Positions 2,418-8,903 of a stretch of DNA of 64,000 nucleotides are shown here, in pieces (the first letter of the stretch is position 1; the number at the start of each line of letters is the position of its first letter). Location of the stretch: contig NZ_JAQUHV010000002.1 of NCBI RefSeq assembly GCF_028681615.1, positions 1 through 64,000 of the forward strand. Direction: 5' to 3'. A model generated the notes under the pieces. It searched no databases. It was given only the letters and a program-made list of their open reading frames with translations, and was not told where the DNA came from. The translations under genes and the position numbers were made by a program. This DNA is from Sulfuricurvum sp. (GTDB taxonomy: Bacteria > Campylobacterota > Campylobacteria > Campylobacterales > Sulfurimonadaceae).

Positions 2418-2519
2418 ATGGCAAGTATCATGGATAAACTCATCACCATCGCGTTGGTGATTTCTGCAGCTGTTACTTTGTGGGCAGTTGTTACACCGAA
2501 TCATCTTTACATCGGGTAA
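2418..2519 (+). CDS. 33-residue single-pass membrane microprotein in the cco operon
   Basis: An ATG preceded by TAAGGAGTTT opens a 33-codon frame ending in TAA at 2517. The product begins MASIMDKLITIALVISAAV and ends in VVTPNHLYIG, so it is almost entirely one transmembrane helix. It fills the gap between the DUF4006 gene and the next gene. The strong ribosome-binding site, the lack of any other frame in the gap and the membrane character support a real gene. By analogy with CcoM of Pseudomonas and CydX of bd oxidases it could be a small oxidase subunit; that is inference. Confidence 0.65.
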   Translation: MASIMDKLITIALVISAAVTLWAVVTPNHLYIG

Positions 2520-2528
2520 GGGTAGCTT

Positions 2529-3230
2529 TTGTTACTCTCGCGAGGGCTGGCGGCCCTCACCTTCATCACACTGTTTTCTTTCTCACTCAATGCGGAATAT
2601 TTATATAAAGACGATGTTGTCAATAATCCTAAATTTGCAGAACAAATCAATGCGATCGGTACAGAACTAAAAGCAAAAACAGGTGTTTCTCTTTATCTTG
2701 TTATGACACAAGATGTTGATGAGAATCAAAGCATCGCTGATTTTGAAAAGCAAATTGCTTCACAAGTAGCAGAACCTGCTGTGATTATGACATTTATAGA
2801 GCAGAAGCAGGAAATCGATATCTTAGCTCGTCCCGTCTCTTTATACAAACATTTTAACAAAGCTCAAATCCTTAGCCCTAACGCAACCTTTATCGGTTCT
2901 GTTGTCAGTGCAATTATGTTTGCACGCAGTTACGATGAGGCAAAGGAACTTATTGCTAATCGAGGCGGAACAATCTTGCCAATTTTAGCCGAAAAAACAA
3001 AAGGCAGTGAAACAGTCCAAAAGTATTCGGTTGCGATGTACAACGGATACAGCGATACGGCAGACCAAATTGCCGCAGCGCAGGGGGTTACGCTTAGTTC
3101 TTCTGCCGGAAACGGGAGTCAAAATTTTATTGATCTTATTCGGTTAATATTTTACGGTATCATTCTGTACGGTATCTCACGATACGTATACGGGCGCTTT
3201 TTTCGTCCAAAGAAGGATAATAATGTTTAA
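2529..3230 (+). CDS. TPM-like membrane-anchored protein of unknown function
   Basis: This 233-residue protein starts at TTG 2529 behind a TAAGGG site. It has a signal or anchor helix (about residues 4-20), an extracytoplasmic domain that resembles the TPM fold (an alpha/beta domain reading YLYKDDVVNNP...LKAKTGVSLYLVMT) and a C-terminal helix (about 203-221) followed by a basic tail. Its stop overlaps the fixH start by 8 bases, so it belongs to the cco operon. TPM domains occur in photosystem II repair and in oxidase or secretion contexts; a chaperone-like role in oxidase assembly is only a guess. The fold call is by eye. Confidence 0.6.
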   Translation: MLLSRGLAALTFITLFSFSLNAEYLYKDDVVNNPKFAEQINAIGTELKAKTGVSLYLVMTQDVDENQSIADFEKQIASQVAEPAVIMTFIEQKQEIDILARPVSLYKHFNKAQILSPNATFIGSVVSAIMFARSYDEAKELIANRGGTILPILAEKTKGSETVQKYSVAMYNGYSDTADQIAAAQGVTLSSSAGNGSQNFIDLIRLIFYGIILYGISRYVYGRFFRPKKDNNV

Positions 3231-3729
3231 AAATCCAGGCACAAAATGGCCTATTATTATAGCACTGGCAATAACCGGTGTAATCGGTATGTCTGTTGCA
3301 ACTGTAAAAATTGCTTCTAAATATCCGGTTGAAATGGAAAATTTTGAAATGCATAGTTATCATGATTACGATCATGGTGTCAATGATATTATTGAAGCTA
3401 AAATTGCATTTGATAAAAAGTATACTATTTCTTTTGTAACGCCTCAACTTGCAGAAAAAGGGACCGTTGTCGAGTATAAAGTAACGGATAAATCGGGCAA
3501 TCCTATTAACGATGCAAAAGTGGAAGCGGTTCTTATGCGGCCCGATGTTAATAAACACGATATTAATCTTACGAATCCTGTTGTAAGCGATGGTATTTAT
3601 GCTTTCGCCCCTGTAGATCTCCCGAAAGCGGGGCGTTGGGATATTACGGCAAAAGTTACTGTCGGGAACGATAAACGGTACTACAATCTCAAAGCGGATA
3701 CTCGCTACCCGAACACGTTCGAATTTTAA
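3223..3729 (+). CDS. fixH: FixH family protein
   Basis: The 168-residue protein has one N-terminal transmembrane helix (about residues 9-30) and a periplasmic beta-sandwich-like domain with the PVEMENFEMHSYHDYDH and GRWDITAKVTVGNDKRYY segments seen in FixH/CcoH proteins. FixH is needed for assembly of the cbb3 oxidase and is thought to act with the copper transporter CcoI/FixI. No FixG or FixI gene is visible here. It is the last gene of the cco operon in the window; a GC-rich hairpin follows at about 3756. Confidence 0.85.
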   Translation: MFKNPGTKWPIIIALAITGVIGMSVATVKIASKYPVEMENFEMHSYHDYDHGVNDIIEAKIAFDKKYTISFVTPQLAEKGTVVEYKVTDKSGNPINDAKVEAVLMRPDVNKHDINLTNPVVSDGIYAFAPVDLPKAGRWDITAKVTVGNDKRYYNLKADTRYPNTFEF

Positions 3730-3868: not shown

Positions 3869-6211
3869 GTGAATAAAGAATGCATCGTTTATCCAACTGC
3901 GAGGTGTATCCGTGAAGCGGTAGCAATTTCCGATGAATGTTTTCTTTCGCACATGATGACAATGGGAGAGTTTCTCTCAAGAGCGTATGTAGCAGTCGGG
4001 AAAACAGTTCCGGATGAAGATTTACGTCTTTTAGCCATGCACGAAGCGAGCGATTTTTCAGGATTCACGGCACTGAATATTGAACGTAATTTTTTTAGTT
4101 TCATCCAAAACTCGGAATATCTGTTTCGTTTTTTTGAAGAGTTGAGTTCGGAACAGGTTTCTGTCGAAACTCTTCAGTCGGTCGATGTATACGGTGAATA
4201 CGAAGAACACATTACGATACTCAGACGTCTGCGTGAGCGATACGGTGAAATCTGTACGCGAGAGGGGTGGGCTGATCGGATTTTCAATGCGGAACACACG
4301 ACAATCCAACATGACTTTTTACGTAATTTTGAGACGATTACTATAGTCGTCGAGGGGTATTTAACCCGATACGAGATTGCTCTATTGCGAGAGTGTGCAA
4401 GCCATTTAGAGATCATTTTGCTTTACAACACAACGGCGTATAACCGAAAAATGACGGCACGTTTTGAAGAGATGGGATTTGAACTGAAAGAGGGGATGGA
4501 ATATCGTCTATCTCTCAGCGAAATCCGGATTGTAGACGAAAATCCGCTTCGTATCAACCGCTCCGTACAATGTGAAATGTTTCATACACGATTGGCGCAA
4601 ATCGGATTTATCAAAGCCTCCGTCGAAACGTTTGTTAAAGAGGGGATAAAACCGGAAAAAATAGTCGTCGTATTGCCCGATGAAGATGCGGCAGTTATGT
4701 TGAAAGAGTTTGATAGTGAGGGAAACTTCAACTTTGCGATGGGGGAGTCATTTGCCAATACGACTCTTTTTCGCCAAATGGAGAGTATCACTCTCTTTTT
4801 AGATGAAGCAAGCGTACTCAATCGCGAACGCATCCGAAGTATCAGTGTTTCTACGATTGATTGGTTCAAAACGCATTATCCGCAAAAATTTCGTTTTTCG
4901 CAGCTGGAAGAGCTGATAGGATTGTTCGATGATGCAGATCCGGAGTCGATTGAAATGATTCTTGACGAGCTGCATCGTTTTAGTCATTTGACCCATGCGT
5001 TGGAAGAGATGGATTTTAGAGCGGTATTTCGGATATTTATGAACCGGTTGCATCAACTGAGCATTGATGACGTGCGAGGCGGAAAAATCACTGTGATGGG
5101 GTTGTTGGAGACACGGGGTGTCGCGTTTGAGGGGGTAGTCATCATCGATTTTAACGAAGGATATGTCCCTCATAAAAGTGAAAAAGACCTCTTTTTAAAT
5201 ACGAAGACCCGTGAATATGCAGGACTGCCGAGCGCGCACGACCGTGAGTCGCTCCAAAAACACTATTATACGATTCTTTGCAACCGAGCTAAAAAAGTGG
5301 TTATCGGATGTGTACAAAATGCCGAATCGGTGCCGTCTCGATTCTTGCTTCAACTGGGGATTAAACACTCTCCGACTGCGTATCGATACGAAGAGGTACT
5401 GTTTCCAAAGGCACAGTATAAAGAACGGAATATCGGACACTATGAGTGTGAATACGATTTTACGCTTCATCCGTTGTCGGCAAGCGGGCTTAAAAGCTTT
5501 TTAACGTGCAAAAGACAGTTTTACTATCGCTATATTGCCCATCTGCGCGATCATGAGTTGCCGCGTGACCTTTCAGAGGAACGTGATATCGGGAATGCAT
5601 TGCACAGTGCCTTGGAGAGACTTTTTAGCGAGAATACTCATTTTAACTCGATGAAGCAGATCAAAGAGAACTTTGACGCACTGTGGGAAGAACGAAAAAC
5701 AGATGATCCGTTGGAGCGTCACATGAGACGGTTGTGGTTGGATAAACTGGACCCTTTTTATGCGAACGAAGCATTGCGTTTTGCATCCGGGGTACAGGTT
5801 CTGTATACGGAGAAAGAATCAACCGTTTCGGTCGAGGGGATAACATTGACGGGACGGATCGACCGGATCGATGAGTATGCGGGCACTCTTGAAGTGATCG
5901 ATTATAAAAGCGGAAAATATCCGGATACGGACAAAGCGCCTAAAGAGAGCGATGTCGATTATCAGCTCAGCGTGTATGCTCTTTTAGCCGGAGCGTTAGG
6001 GCAAGTGGGAAAAGTAGGATATTACGATTTAGGCAAAGGGGAGTTGAAAATCGAGCAGTTTTTAGAAGAAAAAACGGCCAAACTGCGAGAAATATTGGCG
6101 TTTATGGCATCTCAAAAAAAATGGGAATGGGAGATGAGCGAGGACTTGAGCCGATGCCGTCACTGTCCCTATGTTTACCTTTGTCATAGAGAGGTGATGC
6201 GTGGAATTTGA
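3869..6211 (+). CDS. addB: AddB-type helicase/nuclease subunit with Fe-S cluster
   Basis: This 780-residue protein is the partner of the AddA gene downstream. The N-terminal two thirds is a divergent helicase-like region with little motif conservation, as in epsilon-type AddB. The C-terminal third is a RecB-family PD-(D/E)XK nuclease with GRIDRIDEY and VIDYKSGKYPD (catalytic Asp and Lys). Cys547 in FLTCKRQFYYRY together with Cys763, Cys766 and Cys772 in CRHCPYVYLC fits the AddB 4Fe-4S cluster. With AddA it would resect double-strand breaks for RecA. The start is GTG with a GAGAGGGAG site; addA overlaps its 3' end by 11 bases. Confidence 0.85.
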   Translation: MNKECIVYPTARCIREAVAISDECFLSHMMTMGEFLSRAYVAVGKTVPDEDLRLLAMHEASDFSGFTALNIERNFFSFIQNSEYLFRFFEELSSEQVSVETLQSVDVYGEYEEHITILRRLRERYGEICTREGWADRIFNAEHTTIQHDFLRNFETITIVVEGYLTRYEIALLRECASHLEIILLYNTTAYNRKMTARFEEMGFELKEGMEYRLSLSEIRIVDENPLRINRSVQCEMFHTRLAQIGFIKASVETFVKEGIKPEKIVVVLPDEDAAVMLKEFDSEGNFNFAMGESFANTTLFRQMESITLFLDEASVLNRERIRSISVSTIDWFKTHYPQKFRFSQLEELIGLFDDADPESIEMILDELHRFSHLTHALEEMDFRAVFRIFMNRLHQLSIDDVRGGKITVMGLLETRGVAFEGVVIIDFNEGYVPHKSEKDLFLNTKTREYAGLPSAHDRESLQKHYYTILCNRAKKVVIGCVQNAESVPSRFLLQLGIKHSPTAYRYEEVLFPKAQYKERNIGHYECEYDFTLHPLSASGLKSFLTCKRQFYYRYIAHLRDHELPRDLSEERDIGNALHSALERLFSENTHFNSMKQIKENFDALWEERKTDDPLERHMRRLWLDKLDPFYANEALRFASGVQVLYTEKESTVSVEGITLTGRIDRIDEYAGTLEVIDYKSGKYPDTDKAPKESDVDYQLSVYALLAGALGQVGKVGYYDLGKGELKIEQFLEEKTAKLREILAFMASQKKWEWEMSEDLSRCRHCPYVYLCHREVMRGI

Positions 6212-8903
6212 ACCGTTTTTAGCGTATGAAGCGAGTGCGGGGAGCGGTAAAACATTTAATCTTGTCGTCCGCTATCTGAGCCTCTTGTTTATGGGGGAAA
6301 ATCCATCTTCCATCGTTGCTTTGACTTTTACGAATAAAGCGGCCAACGAAATGCTGGAGAGGATTATCCTTACCCTCGAAGAGCTGCCGACACGAGGTGA
6401 ACTTCCTCATATCGCTCGTCTTAGCGGGCTGGATGAAGCTACTATTTTAGTGGAGAGACCTAGGGTATTGTCGCGATTTTTGCGTTCCGATATCCAAATT
6501 TCCACCATTGACAAATTCTTCGGACGGATTTTACGAAAGTTTGCTCTCAATGCCGGGCTGATGCCCACATTTAAAACGATTCAAAACCATCATGAGACGA
6601 AACTTTTAGAACGGTTTTTAAATGAAGTGGAAGTATCGCACTCAGAGGGTGCATTGGTGCATCTCTCGCTGTTAAGCGATAAACGCCTTAGCGATTTGTT
6701 CGGACTTTTGTCTGCCTTGTACTCCAAATACAAAGAGATGAATCTTGATGCCTATAACACGGCTATCGTGCCTGATGACACCACAGTACAGGCCATGGGC
6801 ATTGCCCAAGAGCTTTCCGTACTGGTTCAAAGTAAAGGTTTAAGCCCAACAGCCAATAAAGCTGTCGAAATAGAGAGCTTTGAAGAACTTTTAAAAAAAA
6901 CATGGCTTATACAACCAAGTATGAACTACTGGGTTTTTAAAAAAGGGTACGAACCCCGTATGGATGAGCTGCTTCGGGGCATACAGGATGCGGTTGCTTT
7001 GCAAATGCGCCGTCGGGAGATTTTGTATTTCAGAGAACTGTTTTCGATTCTAAAACTCTACATCAAAAGCCGTCAGGCTATGGCGGTCCAGAGCAATGAA
7101 CTGAGTTTTGATGATATTACGTTGAATGTTCATACTCTGCTACGGGAGAAATTGGAGAGTGAGTTCCTCTATTTTCGGCTTGATTCCCGTCTTAAACATC
7201 TTCTCCTTGATGAGTTTCAAGATACCAGCGTTATCCAGTTTGATATTCTCCGTCCGTTGATCGAAGAGATCCGTTCCGGTATCGGAGTCAACGAGGGGGG
7301 GAGCTTCTTTTTTGTCGGGGATGTAAAACAGTCCATTTACCGTTTCCGCGGCGGAGTAAGCGCACTGTTTCATCAGGTCGCCGAGTTGTTTGATGTTCAG
7401 GTGGAACCGCTGCGGGTTAACTACCGTTCCCTCTCCCAGATCGTCGATTTTGTCAACCGTTCGTTTGAAGGAAAAATCAAAGGATACATTCCTCAGCAAA
7501 GCCCGCAAAGTTTTGCGGGAGGATATGTCGAAGTGGTGAGTACGGATGAACTTCTGGAAACACTGAGTGAACGTATAGGATTCTTAATTGACAAAGGGGC
7601 AGCGCCTGAAGAGATCGCTATCCTCACCGCCACGAACAAAGACGGCAGTGCCGTGGAAGAGGTTTTGAGTGCGAGAGGATACGATGTCGTAACGGAAACG
7701 ACTGCCCGGTTGATTGCACAGCGGAGCGTCCGTTCCATCATCGAGTATTTGCGCTATTGTTATTTCGGTGAGCCGATCTACCGTTCCAACTGCGCGGCCT
7801 TGCTTGGAACCCAAAGTGAAGAGATAGAACGTTCCGGTATTGAAGATGTGATTACGACCGTTATCGCGTTTGTACGACAATTCAAGATTGCGGACAAAAG
7901 TGCTTTGATGTTTATCGAAACATTGCGGGGATACCGTGATATCGAAGAGATTGTTTTTGAGATTGATCGGCTGGAGACCTCTTCACCGCAAAGCGACCTT
8001 AAAGGGATTCGTATCATGACCGTGCACAAATCCAAAGGGTTGGAGTTTGAACACGTTATCGTCCTCGACCGGTTGGGAATGGCACGTTCCCGTAACGATG
8101 CGATCGTTTATGAGTATGACGGGGCTCAGCTTCTGGGGATGCATTATCGGATAAAAAATCGTGAGTCATTTGATCCCTCCTATGCACGTGCTCTCGAAGC
8201 AGAAAAGCGTTTGGAAGATGAAGATCAGCTTAATGCCCTCTATGTGGCACTGACCCGTGCGGTTGAATCGTTGGTGGTGATTATGAAAAGCAAAAACTCC
8301 TGGTTTGATCCATTAGAATTGGCCCCATCCGAATGGGGAGTGTTAGAGCTTAAAACGAAACATGTGCAGCCGCCTGAGCCTGAAAAAAGAGTTGATTTCA
8401 AAGCGCTCTCGTTTGGCAGACAGGAGGAGACACTTCGACCTGTAAAGGAAGCCACACATGATTACGGTGCGGTGCAGTTTGGATTGGCATTGCACTACAC
8501 ACTGGAGATGATGGGAGACTTTAGTGACACATCACTGGCAATTGCTCTTGAATCAACCCGTAACCGCTACGGTGCAGTCTTATATAAGGGTGCGATAGAG
8601 GAGATTGAGTCAAGAATAGGACGATTGATCGAAGATGAAACATTCCGAAGACTAATCCGCGGAAGTTGGCGTAAAGAGCAAATGATACGCCATAAGGGAA
8701 ATTTGGGCGTCATCGATTTATTGGTAGAACACGATACAGGGTGGAGGATTATCGACTACAAAAGCGGTAGAGAAGAGGAAGAAAAGCACCGTGATCAAAT
8801 ACGGCGCTATAAAGAGGCGATTCGTTCCCTTACCGGAGAAGAAGTTCAGGGATATTTGTGTTATTTGGTAGAGGGCGGTATTGAGTGGATGGAGTGCTTA
8901 TAA
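6201..8903 (+). CDS. addA: AddA-type UvrD/RecB helicase-nuclease
   Basis: The 900-residue protein has a superfamily 1 helicase core: Walker A ASAGSGKT (residues 11-18), a Q-like EASAG lead, the DEFQDTS Walker B segment, GDVKQSIYRFRGG and the late RIMTVHKSKGLEFEHV and LYVALTRAVE motifs. The C terminus holds a RecB-type nuclease with GVIDLLVEHD and RIIDYKSGR. It would unwind and degrade broken DNA ends with AddB. The start is GTG, overlapping addB by 11 bases, which implies translational coupling. It is shorter than Bacillus AddA, as is usual in Campylobacterota. Confidence 0.88.
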   Translation: MEFEPFLAYEASAGSGKTFNLVVRYLSLLFMGENPSSIVALTFTNKAANEMLERIILTLEELPTRGELPHIARLSGLDEATILVERPRVLSRFLRSDIQISTIDKFFGRILRKFALNAGLMPTFKTIQNHHETKLLERFLNEVEVSHSEGALVHLSLLSDKRLSDLFGLLSALYSKYKEMNLDAYNTAIVPDDTTVQAMGIAQELSVLVQSKGLSPTANKAVEIESFEELLKKTWLIQPSMNYWVFKKGYEPRMDELLRGIQDAVALQMRRREILYFRELFSILKLYIKSRQAMAVQSNELSFDDITLNVHTLLREKLESEFLYFRLDSRLKHLLLDEFQDTSVIQFDILRPLIEEIRSGIGVNEGGSFFFVGDVKQSIYRFRGGVSALFHQVAELFDVQVEPLRVNYRSLSQIVDFVNRSFEGKIKGYIPQQSPQSFAGGYVEVVSTDELLETLSERIGFLIDKGAAPEEIAILTATNKDGSAVEEVLSARGYDVVTETTARLIAQRSVRSIIEYLRYCYFGEPIYRSNCAALLGTQSEEIERSGIEDVITTVIAFVRQFKIADKSALMFIETLRGYRDIEEIVFEIDRLETSSPQSDLKGIRIMTVHKSKGLEFEHVIVLDRLGMARSRNDAIVYEYDGAQLLGMHYRIKNRESFDPSYARALEAEKRLEDEDQLNALYVALTRAVESLVVIMKSKNSWFDPLELAPSEWGVLELKTKHVQPPEPEKRVDFKALSFGRQEETLRPVKEATHDYGAVQFGLALHYTLEMMGDFSDTSLAIALESTRNRYGAVLYKGAIEEIESRIGRLIEDETFRRLIRGSWRKEQMIRHKGNLGVIDLLVEHDTGWRIIDYKSGREEEEKHRDQIRRYKEAIRSLTGEEVQGYLCYLVEGGIEWMECL

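Follow-up and report, generated by a model that had tools for sequence, protein, structure and literature searches.

CcoY, a small single-helix protein of the cbb3 oxidase operon in Sulfuricurvum and its campylobacterotal relatives

The stretch of DNA analysed here (the window, 64,000 nucleotides of Sulfuricurvum sp.) starts at base 1 of its contig, inside a cbb3 oxidase operon whose genes are all located on the forward (+) strand. The contig start cuts the first frame, the 3' end of ccoN (30 to 329), which is assigned from its context just before ccoO (344 to 1036; PF02433, E=7e-86; TIGR00781, E=3e-82), and these are followed by ccoQ (1047 to 1250; PF05545, E=2e-15; TIGR02736, E=2e-26) and ccoP (1260 to 2189). 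The ccoP product matches PF14715, PF13442 and TIGR00782 (E=5e-38, 131 bits against a cut-off of 180), and its nearest relatives are Sulfuricurvum proteins with 98 and 97% identity. Behind ccoP lie ccoX (2201 to 2407; DUF4006, PF13179, E=3e-29; named as in the consulted parts of PMC8267372), the small frame ccoY (2418 to 2519), ccoZ (2529 to 3230, with a TTG start) and ccoH, or FixH (3223 to 3729; PF05751, E=3e-11). The ccoZ product is a membrane protein of predicted TPM fold; the Pfam TPM domain is found at 14.3 bits, below its cut-off of 22.1, but the modelled structure (pLDDT 71, moderate confidence) resembles TPM domains, the best matches being other TPM proteins with Z up to 15.9. The model also superposes on the TPM-type chain of the mycobacterial bcc-aa3 supercomplex (8hcr_J, Z 12.1, rmsd 2.5 over 111 residues), in agreement with the comparison of CcoZ with MSMEG_4692 in the available text of PMC8267372. 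Against the library of solved structures CcoZ gave no match by sequence, and DUF4006 gave matches only at E 0.68 and 0.81.

The ccoY frame runs from an ATG at 2418-2420 to a TAA at 2517-2519 on the + strand and encodes 33 amino acids, MASIMDKLITIALVISAAVTLWAVVTPNHLYIG, with one transmembrane helix; sequence, profile, selection and an orthologue in a C. jejuni-type locus, all described below, support the assignment. It is preceded by the Shine-Dalgarno sequence TAAGGAG (2405 to 2411, +), a 7-nt match at a spacing of 6 nt to the ATG, which shares bases with the stop codon of ccoX, while TAAGGG, the presumed ribosome-binding sequence of ccoZ, shares bases with the stop codon of ccoY. The frame is thus located 10 nt downstream of the DUF4006 gene and 9 nt upstream of the TPM-like gene, and the overlap of Shine-Dalgarno sequences with the preceding stops indicates that ccoX, ccoY and ccoZ are packed head to tail. 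In the AlphaFold2 model a helix comprises residues 2-25 and a short second helix residues 27-30, with a mean pLDDT of 92 and 97 in the first and second blocks of ten residues. No Pfam or NCBIfam family was matched by the peptide with an E of 0.1 or less. The preliminary description of this DNA had placed a 33-codon frame with a hydrophobic helix and a strong ribosome-binding site between DUF4006 and a TPM-like gene, and in all of these particulars it was accurate, the second neighbour being sub-threshold in Pfam and backed by its fold.

Selection on the frame was analysed by comparing the window sequence with distinct Sulfuricurvum-type frames in 17 comparisons, which were confined to 33-residue peptides starting with MAS or MAK, used identical DNA once and included the window sequence in every pair. 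The results showed a pN/pS of 0.13 (pS 0.47, pN 0.063), and 63 amino-acid changes were observed, whereas placing the same nucleotide changes at random 500 times gave a mean of 183 and a minimum of 164. Both alternative frames of the same strand are interrupted by stops in 18 of 18 sequences, and those of the opposite strand in 11, 16 and 18 of 18. The ccoY frame is, therefore, a real gene under purifying selection, and a chance ORF is ruled out by this selection and by its conservation behind DUF4006.

That conservation extends to much of the phylum. Of 115 loci with DUF4006, 109 have a hydrophobic ORF of 27-40 amino acids with a Shine-Dalgarno sequence directly behind that gene, whereas such an ORF follows other long ORFs at 8 of 740 control positions; the count scores position, length and hydropathy, homology not being a criterion, and the 115 loci are not independent, since two routes of retrieval brought in some of them from one genome or from genomes that are almost identical. 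Five loci are without DUF4006 (L014, L040, L043, L075 and L121), and L001 was omitted as a duplicate of L002. In three of the six misses (L021, L070, L073) the ORF is present just outside the rule, and in two others (L090 and L091; profile matches 6e-10 and 4e-12) a ccoY-like ORF follows an intervening CcoG-like gene, so that ccoX and ccoY need not adjoin. This intervening gene, found in two genomes of family f8, encodes about 480 amino acids and was named by eye from its sequence. The last miss, L120, contains a 36-residue frame further downstream that was picked by eye and gives no profile match. Its locus, from genus g43 of family f2, has a weak DUF4006 match, with the ccoY-like frame about 450 bases downstream and ending in SPYHYLHAV.

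At the level of genomes, DUF4006 is present in 380 of the 397 examined in the phylum, and 16 of the 17 genomes that are devoid of it are also devoid of CcoO/FixO, which suggests that the accessory block follows the oxidase. The position of ccoY was examined in the fetched loci, a subset of these 380 genomes. When the single window peptide was used as query, a match at E<=1, weak matches included, was obtained in 253 of the 397 genomes, and the 25-row profile A1 raised this to 309 at the same threshold, some of the weakest being probably due to chance; family f5, without DUF4006 and without CcoO, still gives profile matches at E 0.02-0.3. The only DUF4006-less genome with CcoO is G230, whose locus (L121, 3,275 bases) gave neither a DUF4006 nor a small-ORF match; the assembly consists of 150 contigs, and a contig break may explain the missing DUF4006.

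Several sequence forms are found within the family. The main form, of 29-33 amino acids, mostly reads M(D/E)K-(helix)-TPNHL(Y/F)(I/V)G. In family f7, which we take to be the Arcobacter type, 8 of 9 peptides share a form of 30 residues in which the end is preceded by (F/L)D-x-x-(K/R) or a similar pattern. The 17 distinct peptides of family f2, presumably the Helicobacter type, have 33-37 amino acids, with EK near the start in 16 of them. Ranking by profile, which took in 41 of 44 later loci, those with a positional ORF, placed this ORF first in its own locus in 10/10 loci of f3, 9/9 of f7, 2/2 of f9 and 2/2 of f6. In f2 it ranked first in 9 of 18 loci, with E below 0.01 in only 4 of 18; hence it is their position, more than their sequence, that supports the orthology of the f2 peptides. 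The C-terminal histidine of the main form is missing from 8 of 9 f7 peptides and from 10 of the 17 distinct f2 peptides. Its absence there argues against metal or haem binding by this residue in all members of the family, and that idea was rejected.

The same gene has been described in Campylobacter jejuni. According to the accessible parts of Garg et al. 2021 (PMC8267372), the order there is ccoNOQP, ccoX (DUF4006), ccoY, ccoZ (TPM) and ccoH, and the genes between ccoP and ccoH were deleted singly and named. Of these, ccoX (cj1486c, DUF4006) is essential for oxidase activity; ccoY (cj1485c) encodes 33 residues with a central transmembrane helix, and its deletion reduced oxidase activity significantly without abolishing it; and ccoZ (cj1484c) encodes a TPM/DUF5130 protein of 200 residues (same excerpts of PMC8267372). 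The order in the window, as judged from Pfam matches and the fold of CcoZ, is identical to the published one, and the window peptide has the size (33 amino acids) and the central transmembrane helix given for CcoY in those excerpts. In the literature searched, cj1485c is named in this paper and in one other, a transcriptome study that annotates it as putatively periplasmic and gives it a value of -1.68 (consulted portion of PMC7099621). The main text of a Ribo-seq census of C. jejuni, in the portion consulted, makes no mention of Cj1485 or Cj1486 (PMC11955535).

A direct comparison was made possible by locus L077 (genome G247, a single contig), which carries at the place of ccoY a 33-residue ORF, MNKALEYLIVIGLVVAAAITAWSVLTVNHLHIG. 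The window peptide matches this ORF with E=1.3e-6 and 53% identity over residues 4-33, profile A1 with E=7.7e-13, and a 55-peptide profile with E=2.2e-13 and rank 1 of the 89 ORFs in the locus, that profile including one other peptide, from L023/L024, of the family f3 to which L077 belongs. All six screening primers given for cj1484c-cj1486c in the available text of PMC8267372 are contained in L077 with <=2 mismatches each, and two deletion primers, with 0 and 1 mismatches, lie 26 nt upstream and 103 nt downstream of the ccoY ATG. A third deletion primer overlaps the ccoY start with 3 mismatches in 26. Locus L083, from another genome, likewise contains an exact match to one screening primer of the six. 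L077 would, on these primers, be C. jejuni or a very close relative. Same order, same size and sequence homology with the L077 ORF identify the window frame as ccoY, the Sulfuricurvum orthologue of cj1485c. The two versions differ in their tails, TVNHLHIG in L077 and TPNHLYIG in the window, and the deletion phenotype belongs to the C. jejuni protein, whereas Sulfuricurvum CcoY is known here from its sequence. Selection at the protein level and recurrence of the frame in relatives, which the preliminary description had proposed as checks, both came out in its favour, and its idea that the frame encodes a small, conserved membrane protein linked to cbb3 holds. Deletion in C. jejuni lowers activity. 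The idea that the gene was unrecorded is ruled out, ccoY having been named in 2021 (parts consulted of PMC8267372). Hence ccoY is known since then from C. jejuni, and in this window it is an ordinary gene.

We consider it very probable that the whole of these observations is explained by a ccoY orthologue, located in a conserved ccoX-ccoY-ccoZ-ccoH block, whose product is a one-helix helper of the oxidase. The gene is the second of this accessory block behind ccoNOQP and is probably co-translated within the cco operon. CcoY would probably be inserted as one membrane helix with the N-terminus inside and the C-terminus (TPNHLYIG) outside; this topology is not settled by charge, since the charges near its N-terminus are balanced and the main form has an uncharged tail. 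Once inserted, it would most likely pack against the oxidase and the accessory proteins CcoX, CcoZ and CcoH, and would help assembly or stability, with full oxidase activity as the outcome. That the role is a stabilising one we hold to be about evenly balanced with its being something else. The fold common to CcoZ and the mycobacterial TPM subunit counts in favour of this explanation. Against it stand the partial character of the deletion phenotype in C. jejuni and the absence of CcoY from the complex components listed there by mass spectrometry (excerpts of PMC8267372), and also the imperfect primer matches of L077, the weak sequence likeness to the f2 peptides and the lack of the tail histidine in many f7 and f2 peptides. 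A catalytic part is a poorer fit to a partial loss of activity than a helper of assembly or stability, or a subunit at the periphery.

In the closest competing view, somewhat less probable than not, CcoY would not be an assembly helper but would stay in the mature cbb3 oxidase as a permanent structural subunit, doing there what CcoM does in Pseudomonas. CcoM of the Pseudomonas stutzeri cbb3 oxidase is, like CcoY, very small (36 amino acids) and has a single transmembrane helix, as AlphaFold2 predicts for CcoY, but CcoM is a demonstrated subunit and CcoY a candidate. The association of ccoY with the oxidase argues in the same direction, and so does the reduced activity of the C. jejuni deletion. 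However, CcoM is described as needed for stability and not for activity, while CcoY affects activity (consulted parts of PMC8267372). Moreover, mass spectrometry in C. jejuni listed nine components of a putative complex, and CcoY is absent from that list in the accessible text (PMC8267372), although a membrane peptide of 33 amino acids is easily missed by this method. Among the literature matches listed, none places CcoY physically in the oxidase.

The solved structures lend this rival no support. When CcoO was compared with them, five distinct sequences were matched (3mk7/5djq, 9g6b, 8smr, 6xkw and 9g83), so that the library covers, through its CcoO chain, entry 5djq, presumably the CcoM-containing oxidase of P. 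stutzeri. The CcoY sequence alone nevertheless gave no match there at E up to 10, and the CcoY profile gave one, 6bhp at E=0.64, which was taken as chance. Hence, no relative of CcoY was found among the solved structures, and kinship with CcoM or CydX is unsupported by them. Other very small and mostly single-helix oxidase proteins are CioY of C. jejuni and CydX of Escherichia coli. CioY is also campylobacterotal (consulted portion of PMC11955535), but both belong to other oxidases, CioAB and CydAB, encoded in another operon, whereas CcoY belongs to the cco operon. Any resemblance in function between CcoY and CcoM or CydX would be no more than an analogy.

A second possibility, which we regard as unlikely, is that CcoY acts mainly at the interface between the oxidase and cytochrome bc (Qcr), together with CcoX and CcoZ, and would promote a supercomplex. 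The modelled CcoZ next to it shares the TPM fold with the mycobacterial supercomplex subunit (8hcr_J, as given above), and Garg et al. suggest, in the parts consulted, that CcoXYZ might interact with Qcr and the oxidase (PMC8267372). However, CcoZ has better matches among other TPM proteins, function does not follow from fold, and in C. jejuni the existence of the supercomplex is still to be proven according to the same excerpts (PMC8267372). Among the literature matches listed from 2021 on, there is no cryo-EM structure of a campylobacterotal cbb3 oxidase or of such a supercomplex. Among the solved cbb3 enzymes are those of Pseudomonas and Rhodobacter. We give a similarly low probability to a combined reading, in which CcoY would be a stoichiometric subunit across the phylum that bridges oxidase and cytochrome bc together with CcoX and CcoZ and has no counterpart in those solved enzymes. 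Finally, the frame might act as a leader or serve for coupling, its translation merely setting the expression of ccoZ while the peptide stays idle. This reading agrees with the tight spacing and with the presumed ccoZ ribosome-binding sequence overlapping the ccoY stop, but is practically excluded by the strong protein-level selection, by the conserved C-terminal TPNHL[YF][IV]G of the main form and by the retention of ccoY in the two loci where a CcoG-like gene splits it from ccoX.

The description of one C. jejuni gene is thereby extended to much of the phylum, a ccoY-like frame being located behind DUF4006, directly or further on, in each of the 115 loci, in one of them only by eye. This suggests that campylobacterotal cbb3 oxidases normally come with the accessory block, and that so small a gene, of 29-37 amino acids, merits systematic annotation. 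The motif of CcoY could be used to find it, and the question of whether the protein is a subunit could be addressed in non-pathogenic relatives.

Behind ccoH the window contains two large overlapping frames of 780 and 900 amino acids (3869 to 8903) which, by reading only, resemble a nuclease-helicase pair of the AddB/AddA type. The first may correspond to cj1482c, and a similar frame is located behind ccoH in L077.
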